A stretch of DNA of 38,097 bases, from positions 1-38,097 of IMG/VR virus record IMGVR_UViG_3300048833_000397. One strand, written 5' to 3'. Made by a program: the position numbers and the translations under genes. Origin of the DNA: a virus. Positions within the stretch are counted from its first letter, which is position 1; each line of letters begins with the position of its first letter. This document shows positions 3,201 to 38,097 of this stretch, in pieces. The notes beneath the pieces were generated by a model that had not been told where the DNA came from, did no database searches, and saw nothing but the letters and a program-made list of their open reading frames with translations.

Positions 3201-3838
3201 TGGACCTGACGATGACCGCCACCCCCGAGCTCGTCGCGATGGTGCGGCACATGCTCGCGCACCCCGAGGGGCTGCCCTGGTCGCTCCAGGGGTTCGGGAT
3301 GCTCCGATGCGACATCGACGGCCGCGACTACCGGCTGCACGTGTGGGACCACCGGTTCCGGGCCCCGAGCGTCGCCTCGATCCACGACCACCCGTGGGAC
3401 CTCGAGTCGCTCGTGCTGTCCGGATCGATCACGAACGTGCTCTACAAGATCGAGGAGGACACGGCTCCGGTCAGCCGGGCGAACCACTACGGCAACCTCA
3501 TCCAGCCCGGGCCCGAGGCGCGCGAGATCGAGCGTCCCCGACCGATGGTGCTCCGAGTTCTGGAGCGCTCCACCTACCGCTCCGGCGCCGGGTACGCCCA
3601 GAGGGCCGACGAAGTGCACGACACCGAGTTCACGACCGGGACCGTCACCCTGGTGCGCCGCACGAACCGCCAGACCACCGGCGCCGCCGGCGACAAGGCC
3701 CGGATCTTCTGGCCCAAGGCGCATGGACGGGACTGGCTCGATGCGACCCCGCAGGAGGCCACCCGCGAGAAGGTCAAGACGATCTGCGACGTCGCCCTGG
3801 CGATGTGGGGGCAGTACGCGCCCGAGGCCTCGACGTGA
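3200..3838 (+). CDS. Cupin-fold-like hypothetical protein
   Basis: 212 residues, ATG sharing one base with the ParB stop. The segment SVASIHDHPWDLESLVLSGS (about 55-75) carries the H-x-H plus downstream Gly pattern of cupin motif 1. A later ADEVHDTEFTTGTVTLV stretch supplies a possible third histidine and the motif 2 strands. Cupins are small metal-binding beta-barrels found as dioxygenases, isomerases or binding proteins. The substrate cannot be inferred. The C-terminus is helical (REKVKTICDVALAMWGQYA). It sits in the early operon between the ParB-like gene and small zinc-ribbon genes. Fold assignment is by motif only. Confidence 0.6.
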   Translation: MDLTMTATPELVAMVRHMLAHPEGLPWSLQGFGMLRCDIDGRDYRLHVWDHRFRAPSVASIHDHPWDLESLVLSGSITNVLYKIEEDTAPVSRANHYGNLIQPGPEAREIERPRPMVLRVLERSTYRSGAGYAQRADEVHDTEFTTGTVTLVRRTNRQTTGAAGDKARIFWPKAHGRDWLDATPQEATREKVKTICDVALAMWGQYAPEAST

Positions 3839-4032
3839 CACGGGTCTCGGTCCACCACGGCGCACCCCCGACCGGCCACCAGGTCGTGACCGAGCTCACC
3901 CGAGCCGGCCTCACCCGGCCGTGCCCCTCGACGTGCGCGCCCTCGACGGCCCCGCACCGCGACGGGGTGTGCCCCCAGTGCGCCCGCCCGTGGACCGAGA
4001 CCCCCGTCGAGCTCAGCCAGGGAGCGGCCTGA
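3835..4032 (+). CDS. Small Cys-rich (zinc-ribbon-like) protein
   Basis: 65 residues, GTG start overlapping the cupin-like gene stop by 4 bases. Two cysteine pairs, CPSTC (about 30-34) and CPQC (about 47-50), separated by HRDG suggest one zinc site. Small zinc ribbons of this sort are common in early regions of actinophages, and their roles are mostly unknown. It ends 4 bases before the next GTG. Confidence 0.6.
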   Translation: MTRVSVHHGAPPTGHQVVTELTRAGLTRPCPSTCAPSTAPHRDGVCPQCARPWTETPVELSQGAA

Positions 4033-4036
4033 CCCC

Positions 4037-4315
4037 GTGAACGTCCTCGCCGCGCTCGCCTCGTTCGACGCCACCCTGCCCGACGGGCAGCTGGTGGCGC
4101 TCGCTGGCGCGCCCGGTGTCGAGCGGGACTCGATCGTGGTCCGCTGCACGCCTCGGCGCGGTGGGCACGGGTTCCATGCCGTCACGTGGACCCAGAACGG
4201 CGTGCACCGCTCGGCGGAGGGTTCGACCCTCGGGGTGGCCCTGCGGCGCGCCCTGCGGCTGGCAGGGACCGCATCCGCCCCCGTCGAGATCACCGAGGCG
4301 GTGCCCGCACCGTGA
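4037..4315 (+). CDS. Hypothetical protein
   Basis: 92 residues from GTG 4037, with a G-rich GGGAGCGG stretch about 10 bases upstream. The sequence predicts beta strands (DSIVVRCTPR, FHAVTWTQNGVHRSAEG) and a basic helix (LGVALRRALRLAG). No cysteine motif or membrane segment. It overlaps the sigma-like gene by 4 bases (GTGA), implying coupled translation. No family recognised. Confidence 0.6.
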   Translation: MNVLAALASFDATLPDGQLVALAGAPGVERDSIVVRCTPRRGGHGFHAVTWTQNGVHRSAEGSTLGVALRRALRLAGTASAPVEITEAVPAP

Positions 4316-4947
4316 CCGCCACCGTGTCGACCGCCACCGACGAGCTGATCGCCGCCCACGAGCACCTGGTGCCCATCACCGTGCGCCGCCGCTACATGTC
4401 GCTGCTCTCGCCCCGGTACTCGTTCGAGGACGCATGCCAGGAAGGCTGGATCGGTCTCCGTCACGCTGCGCTGACCCACGACCCCGACGTGTGCACCTTC
4501 CAGTCGCATGCGATCAACCGGATCCGCAAGGCGGTCGTGCGAGGTGCTGGCCGGGTCGAGGGCATCGACTCCCGGCGAGGGCGCCCGCGCAAGGTCCTCT
4601 CGCTCGATGAGCTCGTCGTCGCGCACGCAGCGTCTGACCGCCAGACCCTCGGGGCCCGGATCCCTGACCCGGGCCCCGGGCCCGACACCGCCGCCCTCGA
4701 CCGCGCCGGCCTCACGGCTGCCGTCGACGCCGCCCGAGCGTCGGTCGATGACCTGATCGACCTGGTCGTCCTCGACTGGCTCCTGAACCTCGACGACACC
4801 CGAACCCAGGTCGGCTCGCACGAGGGGCCCTTCTGGCGCGACCTCACGCGTGGAGACTCGTGGCAGGTCTGCGATCGCCATCGTCGCCAGTACGAGACGG
4901 CAGACGATGAGTACGGCCCCTTCGAGTGGGTCGAGGTCGACGCCTGA
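4312..4947 (+). CDS. Sigma-70 region 2-like protein
   Basis: 211 residues from GTG 4312. Residues about 35-75 match sigma-70 region 2: FEDACQEGWIGLRHAALTHD followed by FQSHAINRIRKAVVR, paralleling the family pattern D-L-x-Q-E-G-x-I-G-L ... F-x-T-Y-A-x-x-x-I-R-x-A-I-x-R. That region binds the beta-prime clamp helices and reads the -10 element. The second half has helices (AAVDAARASVDDLIDLVVLDWLLNL) but no recognisable region 4 helix-turn-helix, so -35 recognition is not evident. It could redirect host RNA polymerase to phage promoters with a partner, or act as an anti-host factor. The presence of a WhiB in the same operon is suggestive. Its stop shares one base with the next ATG. Confidence 0.72.
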   Translation: MTATVSTATDELIAAHEHLVPITVRRRYMSLLSPRYSFEDACQEGWIGLRHAALTHDPDVCTFQSHAINRIRKAVVRGAGRVEGIDSRRGRPRKVLSLDELVVAHAASDRQTLGARIPDPGPGPDTAALDRAGLTAAVDAARASVDDLIDLVVLDWLLNLDDTRTQVGSHEGPFWRDLTRGDSWQVCDRHRRQYETADDEYGPFEWVEVDA

Positions 4948-6041
4948 TGCCTTGGTTCAAGATCTCCGACGACTGGCTCGACCACCCGAAGGTGCAGCGG
5001 GCCGGGAAGAACGGCCGGGCCTTGTGGGTCGCGGTCGGGAACCGGTGTGCGAAGTACTCCTCGGACGGGTGGATCGAGGGCGACCTCCTCAAGGGCATCG
5101 CCGCGCTCGCCGAGGTCCCGCTCGGACCCACGGCGCGCAAGCTCGTCGAGCTCGGCCTGTGGCACGACGCCGAGACGCTCAAGCGGTGCGAGCCGTGCCT
5201 GCGTGACATCGAGGCGATCAACGCCCACCGCCGCACCGACGGCGACCCGCTGCTGCGCCTGGCCGCCGGCGACTACTACAGCCACGACTGGGCGGCCCAT
5301 CAGCTCTCGAAGCACCGCACGGCGTCCGTGGAGGCCCGCATGGCCGAGGACCGGTCCCGGTCGCTGCGCAAGGACCCGAACCTGTGCCAGGACATCCAGG
5401 CCCGTGACCGTGGCCGCTGCCGCTACTGCGGCCGCCGCGTGAACTGGAAGGACCGGCGCGGGCCGGCGCGCGCCACCTACGACCACATCGACCCGTTCTG
5501 CTTCGCGCCGAACGGCGGGAACTTCCTCGAGGGCGTCGTCGTCGCGTGCGGGCCGTGCAACAGCGACAAGGGGCAGCGCACCGCCACCGAGTGGGAAACC
5601 GAGGGCGGCCCCACGCTCAAGCCCCCGGGATGGTCCCCCGAGGACCCCGAGCCGCCCACCGAGCCGTCCGCCGGCGCGCCGCCCGGACCTGACCCGGAAC
5701 CTGACCCGGAACCTGGCTCCGGACCTAGCCCCGATCTAATCCCACCCCCCGGTTTTTCTGACTCTGGACCTAGCTCTCCTCACGGGCACGGGCGGCCGGA
5801 CGCGCCACTCGGGCCGGGTCGGGTTGGGCCAGGTTCCGGGCCAGGTTCCGGGTCAGGTCCGGGCGGGCTCGGGCTGGCCGGGGCCGGTCCGGGTTGGGCG
5901 GGGCTGGTCCGATCCGGGTTGGGCGGGGCTGGGACGGGAGCCTCGCCGCCCACCGACGTGAGTGCTGCCGATGCCGTGGTCGGTGCTGATGAAGATCCCG
6001 CTACCGACGTGACCGAGGAGTTCCACCATGGCGCTGCATGA
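4947..6041 (+). CDS. Replication-initiator-like protein with HNH domain and Gly/Pro-rich tail
   Basis: 364 residues. Residues 1-75 (MPWFKISDDWLDHPKVQRAG...ALWVAVGNRC...DGWIEGDLL) resemble the winged-helix N-terminus of phage replication organisers. Residues about 150-215 form an HNH nuclease: CRYCGRRVNW, then YDHIDPF (the D-H pair), GGNFLEGVVVACGPCNSDKG (the Asn and the second Cys pair, zinc-ribbon type). From about 225 to 345 the protein is a low-complexity Pro/Glu then Gly/Pro tail, encoded by DNA that holds short tandem repeats and a 39-bp inverted repeat. The combination of initiator-like head, nuclease and repeat DNA in the gene resembles phages whose origin lies inside the initiator gene. 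The initiator assignment is inference; the HNH is well supported. Confidence 0.7.
   Translation: MPWFKISDDWLDHPKVQRAGKNGRALWVAVGNRCAKYSSDGWIEGDLLKGIAALAEVPLGPTARKLVELGLWHDAETLKRCEPCLRDIEAINAHRRTDGDPLLRLAAGDYYSHDWAAHQLSKHRTASVEARMAEDRSRSLRKDPNLCQDIQARDRGRCRYCGRRVNWKDRRGPARATYDHIDPFCFAPNGGNFLEGVVVACGPCNSDKGQRTATEWETEGGPTLKPPGWSPEDPEPPTEPSAGAPPGPDPEPDPEPGSGPSPDLIPPPGFSDSGPSSPHGHGRPDAPLGPGRVGPGSGPGSGSGPGGLGLAGAGPGWAGLVRSGLGGAGTGASPPTDVSAADAVVGADEDPATDVTEEFHHGAA
5681..5864. repeat. 39-bp inverted repeat with tandem iterons (candidate origin)
   Basis: The left arm 5681-5719 and the right arm 5826-5864 are inverted copies matching at 37 of 39 positions, separated by 106 bp. Each arm carries two tandem copies of a 12-base unit (left: cctgacccggaa; right: its complement with one change). 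The spacer holds the least GC-rich stretch nearby (gatctaat, ggtttttctg) and a near-repeat of 13 bases (ctccggacctagc at 5717, ctctggacctagc at 5762). The strand composition flips from C-rich to G-rich across the spacer. All of this lies inside the coding sequence of the initiator-like protein. The structure is seen directly; the origin role is inferred. Confidence 0.55.
5889..5932 (+). repeat. 19-bp direct repeat, two copies
   Basis: The 19-base unit ccgggttgggcggggctgg occurs at 5889-5907 and 5914-5932, a 25-base period, just right of the inverted repeat. It encodes part of the Gly/Trp-rich tail (GWAGLV, LGGAGT). It may be simple low-complexity drift or part of the same iteron array. Confidence 0.8.
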
Positions 6042-8117: not shown

Positions 8118-9867
8118 ACTGCCGCCGGGCTACTACGTCGAGCCGGGCACCGGCGCGTGGCTCACGCTGCCATGGCCGGATGACCTCGATCTGCTGCCGC
8201 CGTCGCTGTTCCCTCAGATCGTCCGCTGGTCCCGAGGCCTCAAGACGCCGACGACCCCGGCGGTCGATGGGCCTCGGCTGATCCACCACCTCTACGGGCA
8301 CCCGTGGGAGTTCACCCTCGGGCAGCGGAAGTTCCTCCACCTCTGGTACGCCGTGCGCCCCGACGAACGGTGGCTGTACCGGTCGGGGGTGAAGCGGGGA
8401 GCGAAGGGCACCGGGAAGGACCCGATGCAGGCGGCGATGTCGCTGATCGCTGCGAAGGGCCCGGTGGAGCTCGACGGCTTCAACTCCGACGGGATCCCGA
8501 TCGGCCGGCCCCGCCGGCTGGCGCTGGTGCAGCTGGCGTCGAACTCCGAGGCGCAGTCGACCGACGTGCTCCGGGTGGCGAACGGCATGATCTCCGAGGT
8601 GCTCGCCAGCGAGAACGGCGCCGACCCTGGGATCCTGCGCACCTACCTGGGCGACTCTCGCATCGAGGTCGTCACCGCCTCGGTGGCCACCGCCGAGGGC
8701 GATCCGGCCTCGGACATCTTCCTCAACGAGTCCCACCACATGACCCACAGCTCGGGCGGCCAGGGCCTCGCCGGCGTGGCTCGACGCAACGTGGCCAAGA
8801 GCCCCGGTGGTCGGGCCCGGCTCTGCGAGTTCACGAACGCCCACCTGCCTGGCGAGGCCTCGGTGGCCGAGGACAGCTACCAGGCCTGGCAGGACCAGGT
8901 CGGCGGGAAGACCCGCCGGGCCGACATCCTCTACGACTCCCGGGAAGCGGCCGCTCAGCTCCGACTCCACGTCGAGGAGGAGCTGGAGCTCGGCATCGCC
9001 CAGGCGTACGCAGATTCGCCCTGGAATGACCAGGAGAGGCTCCGCGACGAGGCCCAGGACACTCGGGTCCCCGTGGCCGATTCCGTGCGCTTCTACCTCA
9101 ACTCGCTGCCCACGAACGAGACCGCCTGGGTCGACCCCCGACGGTTCGATGCCCTGTCCCGCAGCGGCGGCGATGCCACCGTCGCACGGGGCACCGCGCT
9201 GACCCTGTTCCTCGACTGCTCGAAGTCCACCGACGCCACCACCCTGGTGGGGTGCCGGGTCTCCGATGGGCACGTGCTCGCGCTCGGCGGGTGGCAGCGC
9301 CCGCACGGTGATCGTGGCACCGGGTGGCTCGCTCCCCGTGAAGAGGTCGACGCCGCGGTGCGGGCAGCGTTCGACCTGTACGACGTCCAGTGGTTCGGGG
9401 TCGACCCGTCGCCGGCGAAGGACGACGAGACCGAGGCGCTCTACTGGGCGCCGCAGATCGACGACTGGCACCGGGACTACCGGGACCAGGTCCTGCTGTG
9501 GGCCACCCCTGGGGTCGGCGGGAACTCGGTGCTGTTCGACATGCGGCTGTCCTCCCGTGGTGGCGCCGACCGGAACCGGGCGTTCACCGAGATGGCCGAG
9601 CTGACCTCCACCGAGATCGACGAGTGGGAGCCCGACGGCAAGTCGCCGGCGCCGCTCACCCACGACGGGAACCCGATGCTGCGCCAGCACGTGCAGAACG
9701 CCCGCCGCCGCCCCAACCAGTGGGGCGTGTCGCTCGGGAAGCAGTCGAGGGACTCCTCGAGGCTCGTCGACTACGCGGTGTCGATGGTCGGTGCCCGGCT
9801 CGGCCGGCGCCTGGTCCTGAACTCCGGCAAGTCCAAGAAGCCCCGCCGCACCGGCATCGTCTACTGA
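8068..9867 (+). CDS. Terminase large subunit
   Basis: 599 residues. The motor and nuclease of DNA packaging. Walker A KRGAKGTGK lies at about 109-117 and Walker B with catalytic Glu (DIFLNES) at 216-222. The RNase H-like nuclease domain shows Asp in LFLDCSKSTDATTLVG (about D383), a second Asp in WFGVDPSPA (about D446) and a C-terminal SRLVDYAV Asp. Length is typical for the class. The start is the rare TTG 8068, chosen because a strong GGAGGGG site sits 9 bases upstream and reading continues directly into the conserved domain. It overlaps the small subunit. Confidence 0.95.
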   Translation: MTTTESSTERPTPAPVELPPGYYVEPGTGAWLTLPWPDDLDLLPPSLFPQIVRWSRGLKTPTTPAVDGPRLIHHLYGHPWEFTLGQRKFLHLWYAVRPDERWLYRSGVKRGAKGTGKDPMQAAMSLIAAKGPVELDGFNSDGIPIGRPRRLALVQLASNSEAQSTDVLRVANGMISEVLASENGADPGILRTYLGDSRIEVVTASVATAEGDPASDIFLNESHHMTHSSGGQGLAGVARRNVAKSPGGRARLCEFTNAHLPGEASVAEDSYQAWQDQVGGKTRRADILYDSREAAAQLRLHVEEELELGIAQAYADSPWNDQERLRDEAQDTRVPVADSVRFYLNSLPTNETAWVDPRRFDALSRSGGDATVARGTALTLFLDCSKSTDATTLVGCRVSDGHVLALGGWQRPHGDRGTGWLAPREEVDAAVRAAFDLYDVQWFGVDPSPAKDDETEALYWAPQIDDWHRDYRDQVLLWATPGVGGNSVLFDMRLSSRGGADRNRAFTEMAELTSTEIDEWEPDGKSPAPLTHDGNPMLRQHVQNARRRPNQWGVSLGKQSRDSSRLVDYAVSMVGARLGRRLVLNSGKSKKPRRTGIVY

Positions 9868-12761: not shown

Positions 12762-13715
12762 GTGGCCAATGACTTCATCAAGGCCGAGCAGGTCGTCGCC
12801 CAGATGCTGGGCGTGCTCGAGCGCGACACCGTCCTCGCCCAGTTCACCTGGCGTGACCTCGGCGCCGATCGCTTCAAGGGCGCGAAGAACGACACCGTCA
12901 CCCTGCGGGTGCCGGCGTTCGTCGAGGCCCGCACCCGGGTGATGCGCGGCGGTCAGCCGATCGTCATCGACGGGCTGACGGAGACCTCGGTCGACGTCAA
13001 GCTCGACACCCACGTGTACAAGGCGATCGGGGTCTCCGACGAGGAGATGACCCTCGACATCGTCAACTTCGGTGAGCAGGTCACCGCCCCCGCCATGGGC
13101 GGCGTCGTCCGCAAGGTCGACGCCCTCGTCGGGGCCGAGATGGCCGGCGCCTCCCCGGAGGTCGAGGTCGCCCTCGACGAGGACGACCCGTACCTCGGCC
13201 TGGTCGACGCCCGCCTGGCGCTGAACAACCACAGCGTGCCCGCCTCGCAGCGGTTCCTGGCCGTCGGGTCCAACGTCGAGGGCGCCATCCTCAAGTCGGA
13301 CCGCCTCTCGAAGTTCGACACCTCGGGCACGAGCGAGGCGCTCCGCGAGGCCATCATCGGTCGCATCGCCGGCTTCACCGCCGTCAGCGCGATCGGCCTC
13401 GACCCCGACGTGGCGATCGCTGCGCACCAGACGGCGTTCCCGCTCGCCCTGGTGGCCCCCGACGTCCCGAACGGCGCCTCGTGGGGCGAGAAGCGCACCT
13501 ACCGCGGCCTCCAGCTGCGCACGCTGCGCGACTACGCCCCGGACGGCGAGGACGGCCCGACCGACCGCCTCCTCACCGACACCTTCATGGGCGTGGGCAC
13601 CACCCTCGACCGTGGCGTGATCGACGAGGAGACCGGTCGCTTCACGGCGTCCGAGGACGGCAAGGACGACCCGATCCTCGTGCGGGCCGTCAAGCTCACC
13701 CTCGGCGGCAGCTGA
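12762..13715 (+). CDS. Major capsid protein
   Basis: 317 residues from GTG 12762 with a perfect AGGAGG 5 bases upstream, consistent with very high expression. Sequence features fit the HK97-fold coat proteins of actinophages, P22-coat-like subgroup: NDTVTLRVPAF, the RGGQPIVIDGLTETSVDVKLDTHVYKAIGVSDEE beta stretch, then long helices (TAPAMGGVVRKVDALVGAEMAG) and a C-terminal GLQLRTLRDY strand. Position between scaffold and head-tail adaptor supports it. It is the most plausible target of the modification genes downstream, alongside the tail tube. Confidence 0.92.
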   Translation: MANDFIKAEQVVAQMLGVLERDTVLAQFTWRDLGADRFKGAKNDTVTLRVPAFVEARTRVMRGGQPIVIDGLTETSVDVKLDTHVYKAIGVSDEEMTLDIVNFGEQVTAPAMGGVVRKVDALVGAEMAGASPEVEVALDEDDPYLGLVDARLALNNHSVPASQRFLAVGSNVEGAILKSDRLSKFDTSGTSEALREAIIGRIAGFTAVSAIGLDPDVAIAAHQTAFPLALVAPDVPNGASWGEKRTYRGLQLRTLRDYAPDGEDGPTDRLLTDTFMGVGTTLDRGVIDEETGRFTASEDGKDDPILVRAVKLTLGGS

Positions 13716-13722
13716 CCCTGCC

Positions 13723-14166
13723 GTGAGCCTGGACGCGCTCGCCTCCCCATCGGAGCTCGGCACCTACCTGGGTGTCGTCATCGATGCGGAGGATGCGCGC
13801 GCCCTGCTGTTGCTCCGAGCCGCCTCGGGTCTGGTCCGCGATGCCGCGGGCCAGACCTGGGACGGCTCGGGCGACGTGGTGCCCGACACGGCGTGGTCGG
13901 TCACCCTGGCCTGCGCTGCGCGGGCGTGGGAGAACCCGACGGCCAAGACCGACCAGGCCGAGGGCCCGTTCCGTGACGGCTGGGACTCCGGTGCAGCGGG
14001 CCTGGTGCTCCTCGAGCACGAGACCGCCACCCTGGGCCGGCTCCGTGACGGCGCTGGCCCGCTCTCGGTGCTCTCGTTCACCCGGGGCCCGCTCGAGACC
14101 CCGGCCGTCGTCGACGACTACGCCCTCGACTCCGTCGAAGAGCGGGCACCCTGGGAGCTGATGTGA
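13723..14166 (+). CDS. Head-to-tail adaptor (gp6-like connector)
   Basis: 147 residues from GTG 13723, 7 bases after the capsid stop. Starts with LASPSELGTYLGVVIDAEDARALLLLRAASGLVRDAAGQTW, the usual opening of HK97 gp6/gp15-type connector proteins, followed by a helix ending in ARAWENP. The ring it forms sits under the portal. Its stop overlaps the first gene of the glycosyltransferase cassette by 4 bases, so the cassette is translated together with head genes. Confidence 0.82.
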   Translation: MSLDALASPSELGTYLGVVIDAEDARALLLLRAASGLVRDAAGQTWDGSGDVVPDTAWSVTLACAARAWENPTAKTDQAEGPFRDGWDSGAAGLVLLEHETATLGRLRDGAGPLSVLSFTRGPLETPAVVDDYALDSVEERAPWELM

Positions 14167-22228: not shown

Positions 22229-23133
22229 GCGTCGACATCGATGACCTGACCCCCGATGCGTTGACGTGGCCGGGGGTCGACCCTGCGGTGACGATCGGCG
22301 CGGTCGGTGCGGAGCTGTCGTTCGACGAGGGTGTCGAGGGCCTCGACATCCCGTCGATCGATCGGACGTCGACGCCCGCAGGGCGCGGTGGCACCTGGGG
22401 TGGCCGGCACCGGTACGGGCCCCGGCTGGTGTCGTGCGACGCGGTGCTGACCGACGAGCTCGCCACCGCCGGCGAGTTCGAGCCGCTGTGGCGCCTCGCT
22501 GAGGCGATGCAGGTGATCGAGTCCCCGGCGGGGGAGCTGCCCCTGTACTGGCGGGGCCTGATGTGGCCGGGTGCGCACTGCGTGTTCGCTCGGCCGGTGC
22601 GCTGCGAGTGGTTGACCGACGAGGACGGAGTGAAGTCCGAGGTGCCCGGGTTCGATCTGGCGTGGGAAGCGACGGACCCGACGGCGTACTCGGCGGCGCA
22701 GGCCGCCGAGATCATCGACACGGAGGACCCGCAGTCGTCGGTGACCTTCGAGGTCGCGAACGCCGGCGGCTACCGGCCCGCAGCCCGGCGGGCGTGGGAG
22801 TTCCGGATGACCGCGCACGGCACGGTGACCTCGCCTCGGATCCGGGTCGATCACGCTGATGGGTCCTGGGAGCAGGTCGAGCTGTCGGGGCTCACGATGA
22901 CCGGCGGCCAGGTCCTCACGCTCGGCCCGGATCGGGTGTTCCGGGTGCAGTCCATTCTGCGGACCGGGAACGTGCGCTCGACGACGAGCTCGTGGGTGCC
23001 CGGTGCGACGTCTCGGGCGCTGCGCATGTGGCGGCTGCTGCACTCGACGGGCTCGGACGGCAACAACGAGGTCACGATGTCGGTGGCGTCGGGTGCGTTC
23101 TCCGGGTTCTGCAAGACGAGGAGCACCTGGTAG
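22225..23133 (+). CDS. Distal tail protein (Dit-like minor tail protein)
   Basis: 302 residues from GTG 22225 (GTGA overlap with the tape measure; GGAGG 9 bases upstream). Starts with LTWPGVDPAVTIGAVG and holds a GGRHRYGPRLVSCDAVL strand region, then APGFDLAWEATDPTAYS-like wording around residue 140, typical of the first minor tail protein in actinophages. It forms the ring connecting tube and tip. The TAG stop shares a base with the next GTG. Confidence 0.82.
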   Translation: MSVDIDDLTPDALTWPGVDPAVTIGAVGAELSFDEGVEGLDIPSIDRTSTPAGRGGTWGGRHRYGPRLVSCDAVLTDELATAGEFEPLWRLAEAMQVIESPAGELPLYWRGLMWPGAHCVFARPVRCEWLTDEDGVKSEVPGFDLAWEATDPTAYSAAQAAEIIDTEDPQSSVTFEVANAGGYRPAARRAWEFRMTAHGTVTSPRIRVDHADGSWEQVELSGLTMTGGQVLTLGPDRVFRVQSILRTGNVRSTTSSWVPGATSRALRMWRLLHSTGSDGNNEVTMSVASGAFSGFCKTRSTW

Positions 23134-30169: not shown

Positions 30170-31114
30170 TCAGAACATCGAGGGCTGGGTCTGGGGTGCG
30201 CTGAGGAGCCGCACGGCGGCTCGGGCGTCCTCGTCGCTGAACTCGGTGTAGATCGCCGTGGTGGTGGGGGAGGCGTGGCCGAGGAGGCCCTGCACGGTGC
30301 GGAGGTTCTTCGAGGCGTTGAGGGTGCGGGTGCCGAACCAGTGGCGGAACTGGTGGAGGGTGGCGTCGATGCCGATGCTGTGCAGGTACACGCTGGCGTG
30401 GCGCGAGAGCAGCGCTGGGGTCCAGGCGCCGCCAGCGGGTCGGGTGAACAGGGTGCGGTTCTGGCGGGGCGTCGGCCAGCTGTCGAGCGCTTCGAGCACG
30501 ATCGGGGCCATAGGGACCATGCGGTCTCGTGCGCCCTTGCCGGTGACGTGGAGCAGCTCCTGGTCCCAGAGGACGTCGTCGCGGCGGAGATGCGAGATCT
30601 CGCCGCACCGGAGCCCGGCGTAGGCGGCGAGGATGCACCAGCGACGCTCCTGCGGTGGCGCCATGGCGATCGCCATCGCGAGGTCGGCGTCGGACACGGG
30701 TCGGGGGAGGGTGCGGCGCAGCTTCGGGCGCATGATGTCGGCGGTCGGGTCGGTGGTGAGGTGCCCGGCGCGCCGTGCCCACTCGTAGAAGCAGTGCAGG
30801 GCGGACAGCCAGGTGTATCGGGTGCGGGCCCCGATGTGCTTGGCGTCGAGGAACCGGTTCACGTCCTCGGCGGCCGCCTGGTCGAGCTGGAGGTCGTGGG
30901 CGGTGCACCACCGGATCCAGCCCCGGATCATGGTCGAGCGGCGCACGATCGTGGCGGGCATGAGGCCGCGCCGCTGCTGGTCGAGGCGCCAGCCTTCGAG
31001 GATCGCTGATGCGTTCACGCCGTGTACCTCCACCGTCTCGATCGCCGGAACGCCGCCGGGGACGGCGGCGGCGGGCGGTGAGCGTAGTGCCACAATGCGT
31101 GGCGTTGGTCGCAC
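30170..31114 (-). CDS. Tyrosine-type site-specific integrase
   Basis: 314 residues from a GTG at 31114. The catalytic set is complete: Arg 169 (AGLRCGE), Lys 193 (VTGKGARDR), His 254 and Arg 257 (LHQFRHWF), His 280 (LLGHAS) and Tyr 289 (AIYTEF). The N-terminal part (about 35-125) is the usual SAM-like core-binding domain. It catalyses recombination between attP and a host attB. It lies 2 bases downstream of the repressor on the same strand, so the two are co-transcribed. Whether the first 20 or so Pro/Ala-rich residues are translated is open, since an in-frame GTG follows at about residue 8. Confidence 0.93.
   Translation of the reverse strand: MRPTPRIVALRSPPAAAVPGGVPAIETVEVHGVNASAILEGWRLDQQRRGLMPATIVRRSTMIRGWIRWCTAHDLQLDQAAAEDVNRFLDAKHIGARTRYTWLSALHCFYEWARRAGHLTTDPTADIMRPKLRRTLPRPVSDADLAMAIAMAPPQERRWCILAAYAGLRCGEISHLRRDDVLWDQELLHVTGKGARDRMVPMAPIVLEALDSWPTPRQNRTLFTRPAGGAWTPALLSRHASVYLHSIGIDATLHQFRHWFGTRTLNASKNLRTVQGLLGHASPTTTAIYTEFSDEDARAAVRLLSAPQTQPSMF
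31089..31103. other. Short inverted repeat at repressor-integrase junction, attP candidate
   Basis: gccac-aatgc-gtggc, 5-base arms with a 5-base centre, lies within the first codons of the integrase, about 15 bases downstream of the repressor stop. Tyrosine recombinases cut core sites made of short inverted arms around a 6-8 base centre. The arms are short and may be chance. In phages such as BPs the attP lies in the repressor gene beside the integrase, the same gene order as here. Weak candidate. Confidence 0.2.
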
Positions 31115-31116
31115 CT

Positions 31117-31482
31117 TCAGGGGACAAGCATCAGGTCAGGTGTGGCTTCGTACAGCGCGAGCTCGAGCTGCCCTTCGGGTGCCTCGACCACCGCCAACGG
31201 CGAGAACCATCTACTTCTAGCCACCGCCGCATCGCCGGCCAGGAGCCAGACGAGGTTGCAGCGGGAGGCCTCCGAGATCTTCTCGGCGACCTCCTCGAAC
31301 CGTCGGGGCGAGGCACCGCTCTCCCAGTTCGCCCACGACTGTGGGTCGAGCCGGCAGGCGCGCGCCGCCTCGGCGATGTTCCAGCCCATGTGCTGTCGAA
31401 CCAGCGCTAGCCGGGCCCCGAACGTGTCTCGGGGGACCCAGGGATCGTCGCTCTGCCCGTGCTCGATCTCTGCAAGTGACAT
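31117..31482 (-). CDS. HTH (XRE-like) immunity repressor candidate
   Basis: 121 residues from ATG 31482. Residues about 20-75 form a lambda-repressor-like HTH (TFGARLALVRQHMGWNIAEAARACRLDPQSWANWESGASP). The rest is a short C-terminal domain (PLAVVEAPEGQLELALYEATPDLMLVP) with no LexA-type self-cleavage domain. Divergent from the excisionase-like gene and upstream of the integrase, it is best placed as the phage repressor. The start codon coincides with the expected transcription start, so the message may be leaderless. Confidence 0.83.
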   Translation of the reverse strand: MSLAEIEHGQSDDPWVPRDTFGARLALVRQHMGWNIAEAARACRLDPQSWANWESGASPRRFEEVAEKISEASRCNLVWLLAGDAAVARSRWFSPLAVVEAPEGQLELALYEATPDLMLVP

Positions 31483-31488
31483 GTACGC

Positions 31489-31518
31489 ACTTTAGGTCAT
31501 AACCCACAGTTTCCACAA
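31489..31518 (-). promoter_or_regulatory. Repressor promoter (leaderless)
   Basis: Read on the minus strand: -35 TTGTGG at 31518-31513, 18-base spacer, -10 TAAAGT at 31494-31489, then six bases to the ATG at 31482. Transcription would begin at or next to the start codon. The -35 overlaps a ccac-aatag-gtgg inverted repeat (31513-31525), a possible operator allowing autoregulation. Confidence 0.5.
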
Positions 31519-31526
31519 TAGGTGGG
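31503..31526. promoter_or_regulatory. Candidate repressor operator
   Basis: Inverted arms cccac (31503-31507) and gtggg (31522-31526), with a second overlapping pair ccac/gtgg at 31513-31516 and 31522-31525, lie midway between the divergent start codons. Two further cctag boxes (31551, 31562) repeat at 11 bases next to the rightward promoter. Any of these could bind the HTH repressor. Confidence 0.35.
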
Positions 31527-31538
31527 GACAACTCGCGC

Positions 31539-31569
31539 TTGACGGGACTTCCTAGGGTATGCCTAGATA
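31539..31569 (+). promoter_or_regulatory. Rightward promoter of excisionase-like gene (leaderless)
   Basis: TTGACG at 31539-31544, 19-base spacer, TAGATA at 31564-31569, and the GTG start codon at 31575. Spacer slightly long, -35 a good match to TTGACA. The predicted transcription start falls on the start codon. The gene has no ribosome-binding site upstream, in line with a leaderless message. Confidence 0.5.
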
Positions 31570-31574
31570 GTGCC

Positions 31575-31766
31575 GTGACCCCGAACGAGTACCTCTCCAC
31601 GGCGCAGGCGGCTCGCCTCCTCGGTGTGTCGGACGAGACCCTCCGTCGGTGGGCTGAGGAGCGGAAGATCCGCCACACCCGCCTGCCCTCGGGGCGTCTC
31701 CGCTTCACGCTCGAGGACATCAACGCCTCGCTCGAGGTCGTCGAGCCCGAGGTGCAGGCCTCGTGA
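31575..31766 (+). CDS. Excisionase-like HTH protein (MerR/HTH_17 type)
   Basis: 63 residues from GTG 31575. The whole protein is one winged HTH: YLSTAQAARLLGVSDETLRRWAEERKIRHTRLPSGRLRFTLEDINASLE, the pattern of the excisionase/HTH_17 family. Such proteins bend att DNA to favour excision or act as Cro-like regulators. It diverges from the repressor. A longer reading from TTG 31539 would swallow the promoter and lacks a ribosome site. Confidence 0.85.
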   Translation: MTPNEYLSTAQAARLLGVSDETLRRWAEERKIRHTRLPSGRLRFTLEDINASLEVVEPEVQAS

Positions 31767-31861
31767 TCGTCGAGCTCGACCCGTTCTCGACCGGTGGTGC
31801 GGTGTCGATCCGCCGCGATGCCGCCCACCGGTCGACCCCTCGTGCGGCGGTGGTCTCGTGA
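31763..31861 (+). CDS. Possible 32-residue peptide
   Basis: GTG 31763 overlaps the excisionase-like stop by 4 bases and gives MIVELDPFSTGGAVSIRRDAAHRS..., ending 57 bases before the convergent minus-strand gene. The coupling pattern matches the rest of the genome, but there is no recognisable domain, so this may be chance. Confidence 0.25.
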   Translation: MIVELDPFSTGGAVSIRRDAAHRSTPRAAVVS

Positions 31862-31917
31862 GCGCCGATGTCGATCGGTCGGCCGCCCTGGTAGATGAGG
31901 TTCGTGCGGGACGGTGG

Positions 31918-32235
31918 TCAGCCGGTGCGCCGCTCGAGGTCCTCGACTCGGGCGACGAGCGTGTCGAGGCCGAGCGTGAGCGCCTGGATGACCTGGATCG
32001 TGCGGGCCACGACGGCGTCGTTCGCGAGCGGGATCCCGGCTCGGGGCGTGACGAAGTCGATTTCCTCCATGAGGAGCTGCGCCGCGTCGAGCACTGGCTT
32101 CACGATCTCGTCGCGAAGCTCGCTCGGTTCGTAGCCCTCGAGCGGCCATCTGGTGGGGGCTCGCCCTGCAGGTCGGGTCGCATGGTCCTCGACGGTGCGC
32201 TTCGGCGTGTCGTCCGGGTGATCGGGAGTTGGCAT
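31918..32235 (-). CDS. Small helical hypothetical protein, convergent with excisionase
   Basis: 105 residues from ATG 32235 with AGGAAGG 8 bases upstream. The C-terminal two thirds are amphipathic helices (SELRDEIVKPVLDAAQLLMEEIDFV, ARTIQVIQALTLGLDTLVARVEDLERRTG), with a likely coiled coil at the end. This strand is preferred over the opposite frame because of the ribosome site and the natural residue composition. It faces the excisionase-like gene and could form overlapping transcripts with it. No family recognised. Confidence 0.62.
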   Translation of the reverse strand: MPTPDHPDDTPKRTVEDHATRPAGRAPTRWPLEGYEPSELRDEIVKPVLDAAQLLMEEIDFVTPRAGIPLANDAVVARTIQVIQALTLGLDTLVARVEDLERRTG

Positions 32236-32425
32236 GTGTCTGCCTTCCTGGTCGGGCTGGCGTCGGGCGGGCACCCGGCGCCGGCAAGCTCTGTTGTCCC
32301 CGGGACGGTACGCCCCGGGTCTGACAACGAGGTGTCGTCCGGTGGGGGCCGGCTGATCCGCCGCAGCCGCCCCCGCCGGTCGATGATCCGCTCGAAGCTC
32401 GACCACCGCGCTGTGCCTGTTGGCC
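32236..32425. promoter_or_regulatory. Divergent intergenic region with inverted repeat
   Basis: 190 bases between the minus-strand small gene and the rightward membrane-protein gene. The main structure is 32293-32328: gttgtc-cccggg ... cccggg-tct-gacaac, an imperfect inverted repeat around acggtacgc. It may be an operator controlling the start of the early rightward operon, or a hairpin. I could not settle on a convincing -35/-10 pair on either strand. Confidence 0.4.
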
Positions 32426-32608
32426 GTGCTCGCCCAGTCCGAGGTCACGTGGCAGGAGCTCCTCGCCCTGGGCGTGACCCTGCTGATCCTGTTCGCCCTC
32501 GCGCTGTCCACGATCGCGATGGCGATCGGCCCCGTGATGCGGGCCGAGCTGGTCCGCGACGAGCGCCGCCGCCGCCGGGCCACCGCCCGACCGCACCCAC
32601 CGTCGTGA
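32426..32608 (+). CDS. Small membrane protein
   Basis: 60 residues from GTG 32426 (TTG 32420 would add two). One membrane segment, ELLALGVTLLILFALALSTIAMAIG (about 11-35), is followed by an Arg-rich cytoplasmic tail (DERRRRRATARP). First rightward gene of the early region. Small single-pass proteins near the immunity region of actinophages sometimes act in superinfection exclusion; that is only a suggestion here. Confidence 0.55.
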   Translation: MLAQSEVTWQELLALGVTLLILFALALSTIAMAIGPVMRAELVRDERRRRRATARPHPPS

Positions 32609-32889
32609 ACGTCTGGCCGGATCCGTTCGGCCAGCACGTGGCATCCGCTGCACCTCCGCTCGAGCCCATCCCCTCCCCGGGCTCGCTGAGGGTCCCCCCG
32701 TAGCAGCGGGTGCCACGTGCTGGGTGGGCCGGGTCCACCGCCAGGACCTCTGCGGCCGCCGGTGTTCGCCCGTCCCCCTCGAGGAGCGAGCACCGACGCC
32801 GGGTCAGAGGACCAGGAGTACGAGCCCCATGTGGGGCCCCGAGCCCACCCAGCAACTGCACCTCCCAACACCCTTCCCCGGAGCTGAGC
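32609..32889. promoter_or_regulatory. Structured leader of early operon
   Basis: 281 bases without a convincing gene. Holds the 21-base inverted repeat 32631-32723 (listed separately), a 9-base stem ggtgttcgc/gcgagcacc (32761-32769 and 32786-32794) and the palindrome gcccca-tg-tggggc at 32824-32837. The density of structure just ahead of a long operon suggests control of early transcription or translation, or an origin. No clear promoter boxes recognised. Confidence 0.5.
32631..32723. repeat. 21-bp inverted repeat with nested stem
   Basis: Arms 32631-32651 and 32703-32723 match at 20 of 21 positions when one is inverted (cagcacgtggca...), separated by 51 bases. Inside lies a second stem cgagccc (32661) / gggctcg (near 32679-32685). 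As RNA this would fold into a long two-part hairpin; as DNA it could bind a dimeric protein. Confidence 0.7.
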
Positions 32890-33276
32890 GTGAACGACAC
32901 CCTTCCCGACGAGCCACTGATGGGCCCGATCCGACTGGTCGACTGGCAGCGCCTGCTGCGCCTCCTCTCGATCGCTCGCTGCGAGCTGGCCGACCACCCC
33001 AAGGGCGTGCGCTACGAGCGCCTCGAGGAGCGCGACTCCGCCATCTTCCTGACCCTCCGTCCCCCGGTCCCGGCCGTGGCCCCCGATCGCACCGTCTACA
33101 ACAGCCCCGACCGCACGAAGAACGGGCGCGGTGCCGTCATGCTCCAGGCCGTTCGGCTGTCCGCCCAAGGCCTCGACATCGTCGTCCACAGCCGAGGCGA
33201 CCACAGCGCTGCCCACGGGACCGGGTCCTGGTCCGTGGGCATCAACGACATCACGGCGATCGAGCAGGCGCTGTGA
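32890..33276 (+). CDS. Hypothetical protein, first of the chained early operon
   Basis: 128 residues from GTG 32890 with GGAG 6 bases upstream. Contains RLVDWQRLLRLLSIARCELADHPKGV (helical) and a beta-rich half (SAIFLTLRPPVPAV; VMLQAVRLSAQGLDIVVHSRG; GTGSWSVGINDITAIEQAL). No cysteine cluster or membrane segment. Its stop shares a base with the next ATG. Confidence 0.65.
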   Translation: MNDTLPDEPLMGPIRLVDWQRLLRLLSIARCELADHPKGVRYERLEERDSAIFLTLRPPVPAVAPDRTVYNSPDRTKNGRGAVMLQAVRLSAQGLDIVVHSRGDHSAAHGTGSWSVGINDITAIEQAL

Positions 33277-33755
33277 TGACCGACACCGTTCCCGACGAGA
33301 CGTCCGATCGCCCGCTGATCGAGCTGGGCGAGTTCCTCATCCCGGCCCACCAGGTCGCCGCCGACATCAGCAACTCCAAGTGGCTGATCTCCCGTGGTGA
33401 CAAGGACCCCGACGGGCCGCTGGTCGGCTACGAGGTCCGGATCCCCGAGGCCGACATGTGCGACGAGTACTGGCACGCACCGACCAACGAGTTCCGATTC
33501 GCCGGGGGTGGCAGCCCGCTCGCCGGCCGCACGCTGCGCGCCCGCTACCTGCCCACGGCCCCGGCCCGGGTCGTGGGCTCGGCCGATGCGCTGCTGTTCC
33601 TCGTAGACCTCGAGCAGAAGGGCCGGCACCGCCGGTCATCGGGTCGCCTCGCTGACGAGATCGTGGCCGCGGCGACCGGGCCGCTCGCCGGGCACCCGGA
33701 CTCGCTGTGGATGCTGGTGCTCGGCATCGAGGGCCAGGAGCTCTGGCCCCGGTGA
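33276..33755 (+). CDS. Hypothetical protein
   Basis: 159 residues. The first 55 residues contain LIELGEFLIPAHQVAADISNSKWLISRGDKD; the centre has PEADMCDEYWHAPTNEFRFAGGG and LAGRTLRARYLPTAPARV; the end is helical. The opening MTDTVPDETSDRPLIELGEF resembles the opening of the previous protein (MNDTLPDEPLMGPIRLVDW), which may reflect a shared short leader. No family recognised. Confidence 0.65.
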   Translation: MTDTVPDETSDRPLIELGEFLIPAHQVAADISNSKWLISRGDKDPDGPLVGYEVRIPEADMCDEYWHAPTNEFRFAGGGSPLAGRTLRARYLPTAPARVVGSADALLFLVDLEQKGRHRRSSGRLADEIVAAATGPLAGHPDSLWMLVLGIEGQELWPR

Positions 33756-34234
33756 ACGTCTTCCTGCCGCCCGAAGCGGTGTTCGACGAGCTCCGCCTGC
33801 TGGCTGCCGTGGAGGGCCTCGGCCGGGCCGCGGCGAACAGCCTCGAGCTTGGCTGGACCCACGACGACGGACCCCGCCCCGGCGAGTGGTACGCGTCGGC
33901 CCGGTACAAGGGCGCCCGGGTCATCGTCGAGAACCAGCACGGCCCCGATGACGCCGCCGAGGCCCTGCTGTTCAAGGTGGCCGCCGGCGGCGAGTGCGTG
34001 CACTGCGGCTCCACGATCACGGTGAGCTCGAACGGGCTCACGCTCACGATCAGCGGCCACCCCGTGCTCGACGAGGACGTCCTCGAGGAGACCGGCACCA
34101 GCGGCCTGTGCGTCTGGAAACGTGATGGCGCCCACTGGCTCCGTGGCTGCGACGGCGGCTACGGCCCGCCGCCGGCCGGGCTCAACCGTGCGCAGCGCCG
34201 CCGCCAGGCCCGAGCGAAGGCGATGCGCCGATGA
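33752..34234 (+). CDS. Hypothetical protein with zinc-binding motif
   Basis: 160 residues from GTG 33752 (GTGA overlap). Predicted zinc site ECVHCG (about 90-95) with later GLCVWKRDGAHWLRGCDGG cysteines. An alpha/beta N-terminus (ALLFKVAAGG) precedes it, and the C-terminus is very basic (NRAQRRRQARAKAMRR), suggesting nucleic acid contact. Proteins of this layout recur in actinophage early regions without known function. Confidence 0.65.
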   Translation: MNVFLPPEAVFDELRLLAAVEGLGRAAANSLELGWTHDDGPRPGEWYASARYKGARVIVENQHGPDDAAEALLFKVAAGGECVHCGSTITVSSNGLTLTISGHPVLDEDVLEETGTSGLCVWKRDGAHWLRGCDGGYGPPPAGLNRAQRRRQARAKAMRR

Positions 34235-34494
34235 CCGCCACCCGACGGGCGCGCCCCCGCCGCCACTGGTCGGAGAGCGCTGACCGGGTGACCACCGGCC
34301 GCGCTGCCGCTCACCCGCTCGTGGGGATGCTGGCCGAGGACGACAACGGCGAGTGGCTGATCCCCCTCGGCAACCTCGACGACGGCACGCCGTACTGGAA
34401 GGGCCGCTTCGATGGGCGCAACCCGTTCCACTGGCTGCCCTGGCTGCGCTCGCGCCTGACCCGTCGCTTCGCCTACGTGGTGGCGGACTCGTGA
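34231..34494 (+). CDS. Small hypothetical protein
   Basis: 87 residues from ATG 34231, chained to its neighbours by 4-base overlaps at both ends. Basic N-terminus (RRARPRRHW), then HPLVGMLAEDDNGEWLIPLGNLDDGTPYWKGRFDGRNPFHWLPWLR, rich in aromatic residues. No recognised family. Confidence 0.6.
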   Translation: MTATRRARPRRHWSESADRVTTGRAAAHPLVGMLAEDDNGEWLIPLGNLDDGTPYWKGRFDGRNPFHWLPWLRSRLTRRFAYVVADS

Positions 34495-35150
34495 CCGCTG
34501 CAGAGACGTCCGATCCGGTGGTGGCCGTGTTCTACGGGGCCGGGGTGCACCCATCGCTGCGCGCCGGGCTCGAGGCGGCGACCGACCTGGTGGCCGGCCA
34601 GCCGGGCCCGTGGCGCCTGTCGGACCCGGACCGGGCTGCTCAGTGCGAGGACATGGTCGCGCGGCTGGCGGGCGAGGGCCTCGACGTGCTCGACAAGCTC
34701 GATGCTGGACGGCAAGCCCTGTTCGACCTGCGCTCGGCGGACGTGCTGCCGATGCACATGTTGCACTTCGTCGACGACATGGAGCATCGGCTCCTGAAGT
34801 TCATGTCGGAGCACGGGCCGCAGTTGCGTTCGATCATCGCCAGCTCCGCCGCCGTCCCCACAGCGCCTACGGAGACCGAAGACGGTTCAGTCCCGGACCC
34901 GTCGGTGTTCCCGTCGATCGAGGGGGCCCTGCAGTACAAGTCACCGAAGTGGCGCGAGGTGATCGCTGAGCGAGGGCTGTCGGTCCCCGTGGTGAAGGCC
35001 GAGCTGGCCGCCCGCTGCGCAGCCGCTGGGCGGACGCCGCCGGCGACGTTGAACGACCTGCGCGGTCACCGGGACCTGGTGCAGCTGATGCTCCACGTGA
35101 TCTCGGACCAGTACCGCGCCGCCCACCCGATCCCGGGGGAGCAGCCATGA
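34491..35150 (+). CDS. Hypothetical helical protein
   Basis: 219 residues from GTG 34491. Mostly helical: RAAQCEDMVARLAGEGLDVLDKLDAGRQALFDL, LHFVDDMEHRLLKFMSEHGPQLRSIIASS, and a C-terminal VVKAELAARCAAAGRTPPATLNDLRGHRDLVQLMLHVI that looks like a DNA-binding or replication accessory region. There is a Pro-rich linker at about 125-145. No family recognised. Confidence 0.65.
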   Translation: MTAAETSDPVVAVFYGAGVHPSLRAGLEAATDLVAGQPGPWRLSDPDRAAQCEDMVARLAGEGLDVLDKLDAGRQALFDLRSADVLPMHMLHFVDDMEHRLLKFMSEHGPQLRSIIASSAAVPTAPTETEDGSVPDPSVFPSIEGALQYKSPKWREVIAERGLSVPVVKAELAARCAAAGRTPPATLNDLRGHRDLVQLMLHVISDQYRAAHPIPGEQP

Positions 35151-37591: not shown

Positions 37592-37968
37592 TGGTCCTGC
37601 AGCGTCTGCTGTCTCGTGTGGTGCCGGCCCGCCGTGGTTCCGTGGTGTGCCGGGTTCCTGCACTGGTCGCTGCGCCTGTTGGGCGCGCGCTGGTGTCAAC
37701 GTCACCCCCTGGTGCTGTGGAAGGTCAACGGGGGAGCGAAGGGCTCCGGCCGGCACCACACGACCCCCGCCCGACCGTTCGCCGCCGCCCGGGCGATGTG
37801 CTGCAGCGGCACCTGCTGTGCGCTGCGACCCGTCTCCACGACGAGGGCCCCGATGGGCGCTGCAAGGACTGCCTCGAGGTCCTCGACGGCGACGCTGAGG
37901 TGTGCGTGTGGGGTCCGACGCCCGGGCTCGACCAGGTCCGTCCCACCACCTGGCCGGTGCCCGGATGA
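37588..37968 (+). CDS. Hypothetical protein before WhiB, reading frame uncertain
   Basis: 126 residues from GTG 37588 (or ATG 37591), overlapping the ASCH-like stop. The C-terminal half looks genuine (LLCAATRLHDEGPDGRCKDCLEVLDGDAEVCVW, with a C-K-D-C pair). The N-terminal half is Pro/Arg/Val-rich and less protein-like. In the second frame, 37634-37790 reads FLHWSLRLLGARWCQRHP and LVLWKVNGGAKGSGRHHT, which looks more natural. The gene may thus start later (for example GTG 37795) or involve a frameshift. It ends 2 bases before the G-run that precedes WhiB. Confidence 0.45.
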   Translation: MMVLQRLLSRVVPARRGSVVCRVPALVAAPVGRALVSTSPPGAVEGQRGSEGLRPAPHDPRPTVRRRPGDVLQRHLLCAATRLHDEGPDGRCKDCLEVLDGDAEVCVWGPTPGLDQVRPTTWPVPG

Positions 37969-37970
37969 GC

Positions 37971-38097
37971 GGGGGGGGGTGCCGGTGAATCCGTCCGAGT
38001 TCAAGCGCGCCTGGCGCGACGCCGCGGTGTGCGCCGGCATGGACCCCGATCTGTTCTTCCCGCCGCGACACCAGAACGTCGACGAGCGCGCAGAGGC
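37971..38097. repeat. Terminal direct repeat, copy 2
   Basis: Exact copy of bases 1-127. It should be counted once in the circular unit of 37,970 bp. Confidence 0.95.
37985..38097 (+). CDS. WhiB-like gene, truncated by window end (duplicate of start)
   Basis: Same gene as at 15-323, seen with its true upstream context: TGA of the previous gene at 37966-37968, then gc, then nine G, then the GTG start. Only the first 37 codons are present because the window ends. Not a second gene. Confidence 0.9.
   Translation, partial: MNPSEFKRAWRDAAVCAGMDPDLFFPPRHQNVDERAE

Follow-up and report, generated by a model that had tools for sequence, protein, structure and literature searches.

The stretch of DNA analysed here, the window, is the 38,097-nt IMG/VR virus record IMGVR_UViG_3300048833_000397, and all coordinates refer to it unless a relative is named. 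It begins and ends with the same 127 bases (an exact direct terminal repeat, 1–127 = 37971–38097) and therefore probably represents a complete, circular genome of 37,970 bp, despite its classification as linear. Judged by its genes, which include tyrosine integrase, HTH repressor-like, MerR/excisionase-like, structural, ParB-like, sigma-like and Rep/HNH genes, the virus is a temperate phage. The closest relative of the integrase in a single scan of bacterial genomes was found in an Acidimicrobiaceae MAG (45% identity). Near the end of the record lies an inverted repeat that matches at 17 of 18 positions (37614–37631 / 37746–37763, 114-nt gap).

The region of interest is a gap, here called the leader, that sits at the junction between the end of the immunity region and the start of a plus-strand operon:

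30170–31114, minus strand: tyrosine integrase gene
31117–31482, minus strand: HTH repressor-like gene of the immunity region
32420–32608, plus strand: 62-aa ORF with one hydrophobic stretch, a basic tail and good codon usage
32609–32889, plus strand: leader, 281 bases from the stop of the 62-aa ORF to the GTG of the first chained gene
32890–33276, plus strand: opening gene of the operon chain, 128 aa, GTG start

The genes of this operon, presumably the early operon, are chained by overlaps of 1–4 nt, depending on the start codons chosen. Neither PHROGs nor Pfam gave a match for the 128-aa product of its first gene; the 62-aa ORF had none in PHROGs and Pfam matches below the cut-off only.

Predicted structure and coding signal of the leader

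The original prediction had described four stems in the leader. Its 21-bp inverted repeat with one mismatch is present (32631–32651 / 32703–32723, arms 51 nt apart, 20 of 21 positions complementary) and exceeds chance, since 60 dinucleotide shuffles of the whole window produced no comparable repeat with more than 17 matches; the lone DNA mismatch (32644/32710) becomes a U.G wobble in plus-strand RNA. The nested 7-bp stem was likewise found, as the complement CGAGCCC/GGGCTCG. Two stems needed rewording: the 9-bp stem, which we assume to be the hairpin P1 below (32613–32621/32626–32634), has 9 bp as RNA, one of them G.U, and 7 bp as DNA, and the 14-base palindrome consists of 6+6 bp around a 2-nt middle and is symmetric at 12 of 14 positions. 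A further complement of 10 bp (32720–32729/32843–32852), unseen by the original prediction, closes a third helix, P3. The predicted plus-strand RNA fold and the adjoining features are as follows:

32613–32634, plus strand: P1, hairpin of 9 bp with a 4-nt loop and one G.U pair (32620–32627)
32635–32719, plus strand: P2, 17-bp helix 32635–32651/32703–32719 with one G.U pair (32644–32710), the core of the 21-bp inverted repeat
32661–32685, plus strand: nested 7-bp complement in the P2 loop, with a C-rich 11-nt loop
32720–32852, plus strand: P3, long helix with inner stems, closed by 32720–32729/32843–32852
32824–32837, plus strand: 14-base near-palindrome, a small hairpin within P3
32605–32703, plus strand: candidate 32-aa leader ORF whose GTG overlaps the upstream stop as GTGA
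32854–32889, plus strand: C-rich, weakly structured spacer with GGAG (read by eye as a ribosome site) at 32880–32883, 6 nt before the GTG

The three helices abut, with 0–1 unpaired nt between them, and the fold comprises 86 pairs with a mean pair probability of 0.92 (lowest 0.33). Positions 32600–32895 fold on the plus strand to −157.9 kcal/mol against −129.3 (sd 5.4) in shuffles (z −5.35, none of 200 as good), and on the minus strand with z −3.34 (1 of 200 as good). Among 292 plus-strand grid windows of 260 nt, each compared with 20 shuffles, 32631–32890 ranks first (z −6.63); for two windows added off the grid the scores were z −8.65 (start at 32605) and −4.83 (start at 32620). Three helices abutting in a row were counted in 7 of 5,762 strand-windows of the window and its two relatives G001 and G002; the arrangement is rare but not unique, one of the seven being the leader and six being at other places, including at least one within a gene (22281–22538). 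The leader is a real, non-random structured element. The second strongest fold of the grid (13651–13910, z −5.97) is located where the major head gene ends.

The strand of the element is less clear-cut. The z-score of the leader is better on the plus strand (−6.34 versus −5.04), as is that of P1 and P2 together (32612–32720; −6.67 versus −4.61); the absolute energy of the leader is lower on the minus strand (−155.9 versus −148.5), and P3 alone folds equally well on both (−4.93 on plus, −4.92 on minus). Taken alone, the leader therefore supports structure more firmly than strand. In favour of RNA, the helices abut, P3 is significant by itself and the mismatch of the repeat is a G.U pair in plus-strand RNA.

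The statement that no gene explains the stems holds for most frames, and two, one on each strand, came out as ambiguous. On a codon score for which the off-frame 95th percentile was −0.38 and the in-frame 5th percentile −0.14 bits/codon, the candidate ORF at 32605–32703, which overlaps P1 and P2 and ends at the base of the P2 3′ arm, reached −0.10 bits/codon, between coding and noncoding, and one open minus-strand frame across P1–P2 gave −0.03 to −0.09 (windows starting at 32580–32679). The GC-by-frame pattern of the adjoining genes is missing across the gap, and an upstream extension of the 32890 gene was rejected, 32710–32889 scoring −0.78 bits/codon. The start region of that gene (32854–32900) is weakly structured (z +0.52).

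Neither a promoter-like site nor an intrinsic terminator, sought as a G+C-rich hairpin followed by a T run, was found in 31400–33000; GC-rich hosts may use terminators that lack the T run. The leader yielded no tRNA or tmRNA. The 10-mer CTGCACCTCC occurs twice in the leader (32648–32657 and 32856–32865) and nowhere else in the window; the CACCTCC inside it resembles the anti-Shine-Dalgarno end of 16S rRNA.

Homologue searches and relatives of the locus

Searches of phages, plasmids, viral contigs and genomes returned no homologue of the leader. Phage records had no match to 32000–34300 at E 1e-5, and with the threshold relaxed to E 10 only short pieces of the leader matched, in seven phage records, none covering 80% of it; plasmids gave no DNA match or short and weak pieces. 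The two-arm pattern and the P1–P2 pattern each had 0 hits in the viral contigs. Two covariance models, R1 and R2, each built from two identical rows of the leader alone and hence weak, found nothing better than E 0.48 and 2 outside the window over 90 sources; within it, beyond the leader, they returned its own opposite strand (E 0.04 and 1.7) and the positions 20412 and 18361 (E 1.4 and 2.7). R1 had no match in one genome, nor, with stricter filters, in 296 genomes of the class of genome G027. Rfam gave 0 matches at the gathering cut-off in the whole window and three sub-threshold ones in 32230–32950 (E 0.12–0.74).

The first operon gene had no match in viral contigs or phages, and the protein of 31918–32235 none in viral contigs; the gene at 33276–33755 was absent from 8 records and matched once in 296 genomes (E 8e-4). 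In the viral contigs the portal led to two loci and the integrase to four, one of which is G001 itself. The contig of the next integrase relative, L101, begins 263 bases upstream of the match, and the stretch in which a leader would lie is missing; the G002 record also appears to break at the equivalent place. Upstream of the integrases of two further loci, L102 and L104, the best of 134 windows reached z −5.49 (L104 2521–2720); this and one further stretch were folded and bore no likeness to the leader.

The nearest relatives are G001 (integrase about 70% and DUF5131 protein 68% identical) and G002 (DUF5131 protein 51% identical). The comparison with them involves the following structures, AUCCGCCG being a loop of 8 nt:

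31787–31835, plus strand: hairpin H1, loop AUCCGCCG at 31808–31815
32334–32384, plus strand: hairpin H2, loop AUCCGCCG at 32356–32363, upstream of the 62-aa ORF
G001 (L098) 3367–3405 and 3943–3986, plus strand: two hairpins with loop AUCCGCCG
G001 (L098) 3989–4108, plus strand: three abutting hairpins (3991–4027, 4028–4063, 4064–4106)

G001 matches 32182–32364 of the window at 74% identity, the match stopping one base past the H2 loop. For 32365–34548 no DNA match at E 0.01 was found to the compared parts of G001 and G002, and its flanks are matched by G001 before and by G002 after; this stretch is possibly a lineage-specific block that holds the leader and the first operon genes. Between the G001 counterpart of H2 and the first following plus-strand gene (at 4135) lies the run of three abutting hairpins, which folds with z −7.27 on the plus and −2.87 on the minus strand and contains six G.U pairs on the former and none on the latter. 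It resembles the leader in layout only, without sequence similarity. We suggest that it is a predicted structured plus-strand leader at the corresponding place, which lends indirect support to the leader of the window. Since the run was picked up by its fold (second and fourth of 225 G001/G002 windows, z −4.63 and −4.26), its position alone counts as independent evidence; it is absent from the three-helix scan because windows of 260 nt fold it together with its flanks.

A family of hairpins with a constant loop

The window and G001 each carry two strong AUCCGCCG hairpins beside the immunity region, on the same strand as the leaders. H1 is located where the xis-like gene (31539–31766) and the 31918–32235 gene converge, in the space between their ends, and its stem is unrelated to those of the other three. 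In a survey of 554 strong hairpins with 8-nt loops (502 distinct loops, from 102 partly overlapping sequences), AUCCGCCG was the sole loop that occurred at least three times and in at least two sequences; three loops had higher counts, each confined to a single sequence. Aligned, the four hairpins are paired in 96.4% of cells and 8 of 14 pairs are changed on both sides, neither value being reached in 500 shuffles, with the caveat that the rows were chosen by loop and stem strength, which favours pairing and makes this covariation support an upper estimate. The loop survey is the fairer measure of the family.

All four members are more stable on the plus strand; the two from G001 fold by themselves with z −1.63 and −2.73 only. 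A covariance model of the family, R3, recovered just these four at E < 0.3 in 95 sources. Its three matches in 247 genomes at E ≤ 0.01, two of them with the exact loop, are read as chance because they lie in stretches that are open in at least one frame and about 0.7 would be expected (at E ≤ 0.003, the E-values being rough); five weak matches in four of six further records were not credited either. Weaker hairpins with the exact loop (G001 29080, G002 6593 and 31314; −16 to −22 kcal/mol) and a G001 hairpin with a different loop (4577–4640) were omitted from the alignment. As a measure of chance, 3,000 randomly chosen positions of the window yielded a hairpin of this sort below −16 kcal/mol in 240 cases and below −25 in 9. 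At gathering scores, Rfam matched none of the AUCCGCCG hairpins of the window. A related word, GGUCCACCGC, occurs in P3 of the leader, where it forms only a weak hairpin of different shape.

Possible roles of the leader

Tentatively, we read the leader as a plus-strand, cis-acting leader RNA of the temperate phage's early operon, a model that appears plausible if still short of probable. In sequence it is an orphan within the collections searched, while resembling a known kind of element, the phage early leader RNA. Further support comes from the AUCCGCCG hairpins on the same strand beside both leaders, as indirect evidence, and from the position of the element, next to the integrase, repressor and xis-like genes and ahead of the chained genes. 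Among the four roles originally offered, those of a structured RNA or of an attenuation or antitermination site are the best supported, because of the low energy, the abutting helices, the weakly structured start of the first gene and the counterpart in G001; a second origin is weak at best, and operators are taken up below.

How such a leader might act can be proposed by analogy, with a mechanism that we regard as somewhat doubtful: it would meter early transcription by partial termination or processing, leaving a stable RNA. Early transcription would start upstream, at a presumed promoter, cross H2 and the 62-aa ORF and copy the leader, and P2 and P3 would form behind the polymerase. A share of the transcripts would end or be cut at P2–P3, giving rise to a stable structured RNA, and the remainder would read into the operon, the leader thus setting the amount of early mRNA. 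Metering may further depend on translation of the candidate ORF at 32605–32703 through P1 and P2.

The Pleft region of L5 and D29 provides a precedent for partial termination or processing, and the put RNA of HK022 a second model with the opposite effect. Small noncoding RNAs are produced in abundance by Cluster A mycobacteriophages, and for L5/D29 Pleft it is inferred by the authors that roughly 90% of early transcripts end after about 500 nt, with partial processing of the product (PMC5712189). The Pleft leader of L5, D29 and StarStuff is noncoding, occupies the beginning of early lytic transcription and belongs to temperate phages of an actinobacterium (PMC5712189), features that our leader would share; compared with Pleft, the leader of the window has a 62-aa ORF upstream, is known from helices rather than transcripts and shows no promoter-like site. 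Sequence similarity between the right end of L5 and 32000–34300 was not found in the phage records at E 1e-5. The put RNA is about 70 nt long, consists of two stem-loops and exists in two similar copies, each early promoter having one; it needs no dedicated protein to suppress termination, which it does via the zinc-binding domain of the RNA polymerase beta′ subunit (PMC9378689). The leader would likewise be a structured RNA built of stem-loops near an early phage transcript start, but with about 240 nt, three helices and a single copy it departs from put in stem number and in lacking a second copy, and was rejected as a member.

An unlikely alternative, on which the fold would be incidental, is a DNA site whose 21-bp arms serve as inverted binding sites for a phage regulator (the repressor, the xis-like HTH protein or the ParB-like protein). 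The arms exceed chance in shuffles, lie about 72 bp apart centre to centre and are near the repressor and HTH genes; each contains CACGTG, and all three copies of CACGTGGCA in the window fall in 32446–32719, a count that 2 of 100 shuffles reach. CACGTG itself, however, is not enriched (23 sites in the window versus 19.6 expected), and the 21-mer arm, allowing up to three mismatches, has its two copies only (0 matches in 100 shuffles). A DNA site would explain neither P1, nor P3 with its own z of −4.9, nor the abutment of these helices with P2, and the lone arm mismatch is a G.U wobble in plus-strand RNA. The repressor had no match in the compared parts of G001 at E 0.01, and the absence of the arms from G001 is therefore uninformative on operators. 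The ESAS elements of Cluster K phages are imperfect 17-bp inverted repeats with a shared consensus that recur at several genes, resembling the leader in their imperfect repeats, variable spacer and position upstream of phage genes (PMC3203893); measured against that description, the leader fails on copy number, its 21-bp repeat being found once in the window.

The arrangement in phage T7 provides a precedent for another reading that we consider improbable, a processed intercistronic spacer in which RNase III-type cuts would separate the message of the 62-aa ORF from that of the operon and protect the new ends. The two cistrons are indeed separated by extended, almost perfect duplexes, of 17 bp in P2 and longer in P3, with a weakly structured start behind them; against this, no sequence feature here sets RNase III substrates apart from other duplexes, and the gap seems longer than a simple processing site would need.

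Quite unlikely, in our estimate, is a two-part RNA device by which this phage clade would control its early operon, composed of boxB-like AUCCGCCG hairpins and of abutting helices, conserved in shape rather than sequence, that modify the passing polymerase. The constant loop on variable stems would then be read by a phage or host protein, and put or nut RNA would have its counterpart, unrelated in sequence, in the leader.

A discrete trans-acting small RNA transcribed from about 32609–32853 would fit the compact fold with its defined ends and the Cluster A precedent (PMC5712189), and is nonetheless very unlikely given that no promoter-like or T-run terminator-like site, sequence homologue or gathering-score Rfam match was found in the searches above. 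A replication origin or other single-strand DNA structure is highly improbable: the stems are stable on both strands, but no direct repeat within 32400–33000 occurs in more than two copies, the cumulative GC skew peaks rather than bottoms at about 32350, with small amplitude, and a better candidate origin by sequence is the 39-bp inverted repeat with tandem units (5679–5717 / 5828–5866) inside the Rep/HNH ORF 4926–6041, a stretch that recurs, with its cross-strand match, in G002 (9310–9507).

If it is transcribed, the leader of the early operon would contribute a structured early leader from a clade of phages that has been little sampled. The AUCCGCCG hairpin family is the more general lead of the two, and it offers a cheap and concrete target: a protein that may bind a constant loop on variable stems beside the immunity region.
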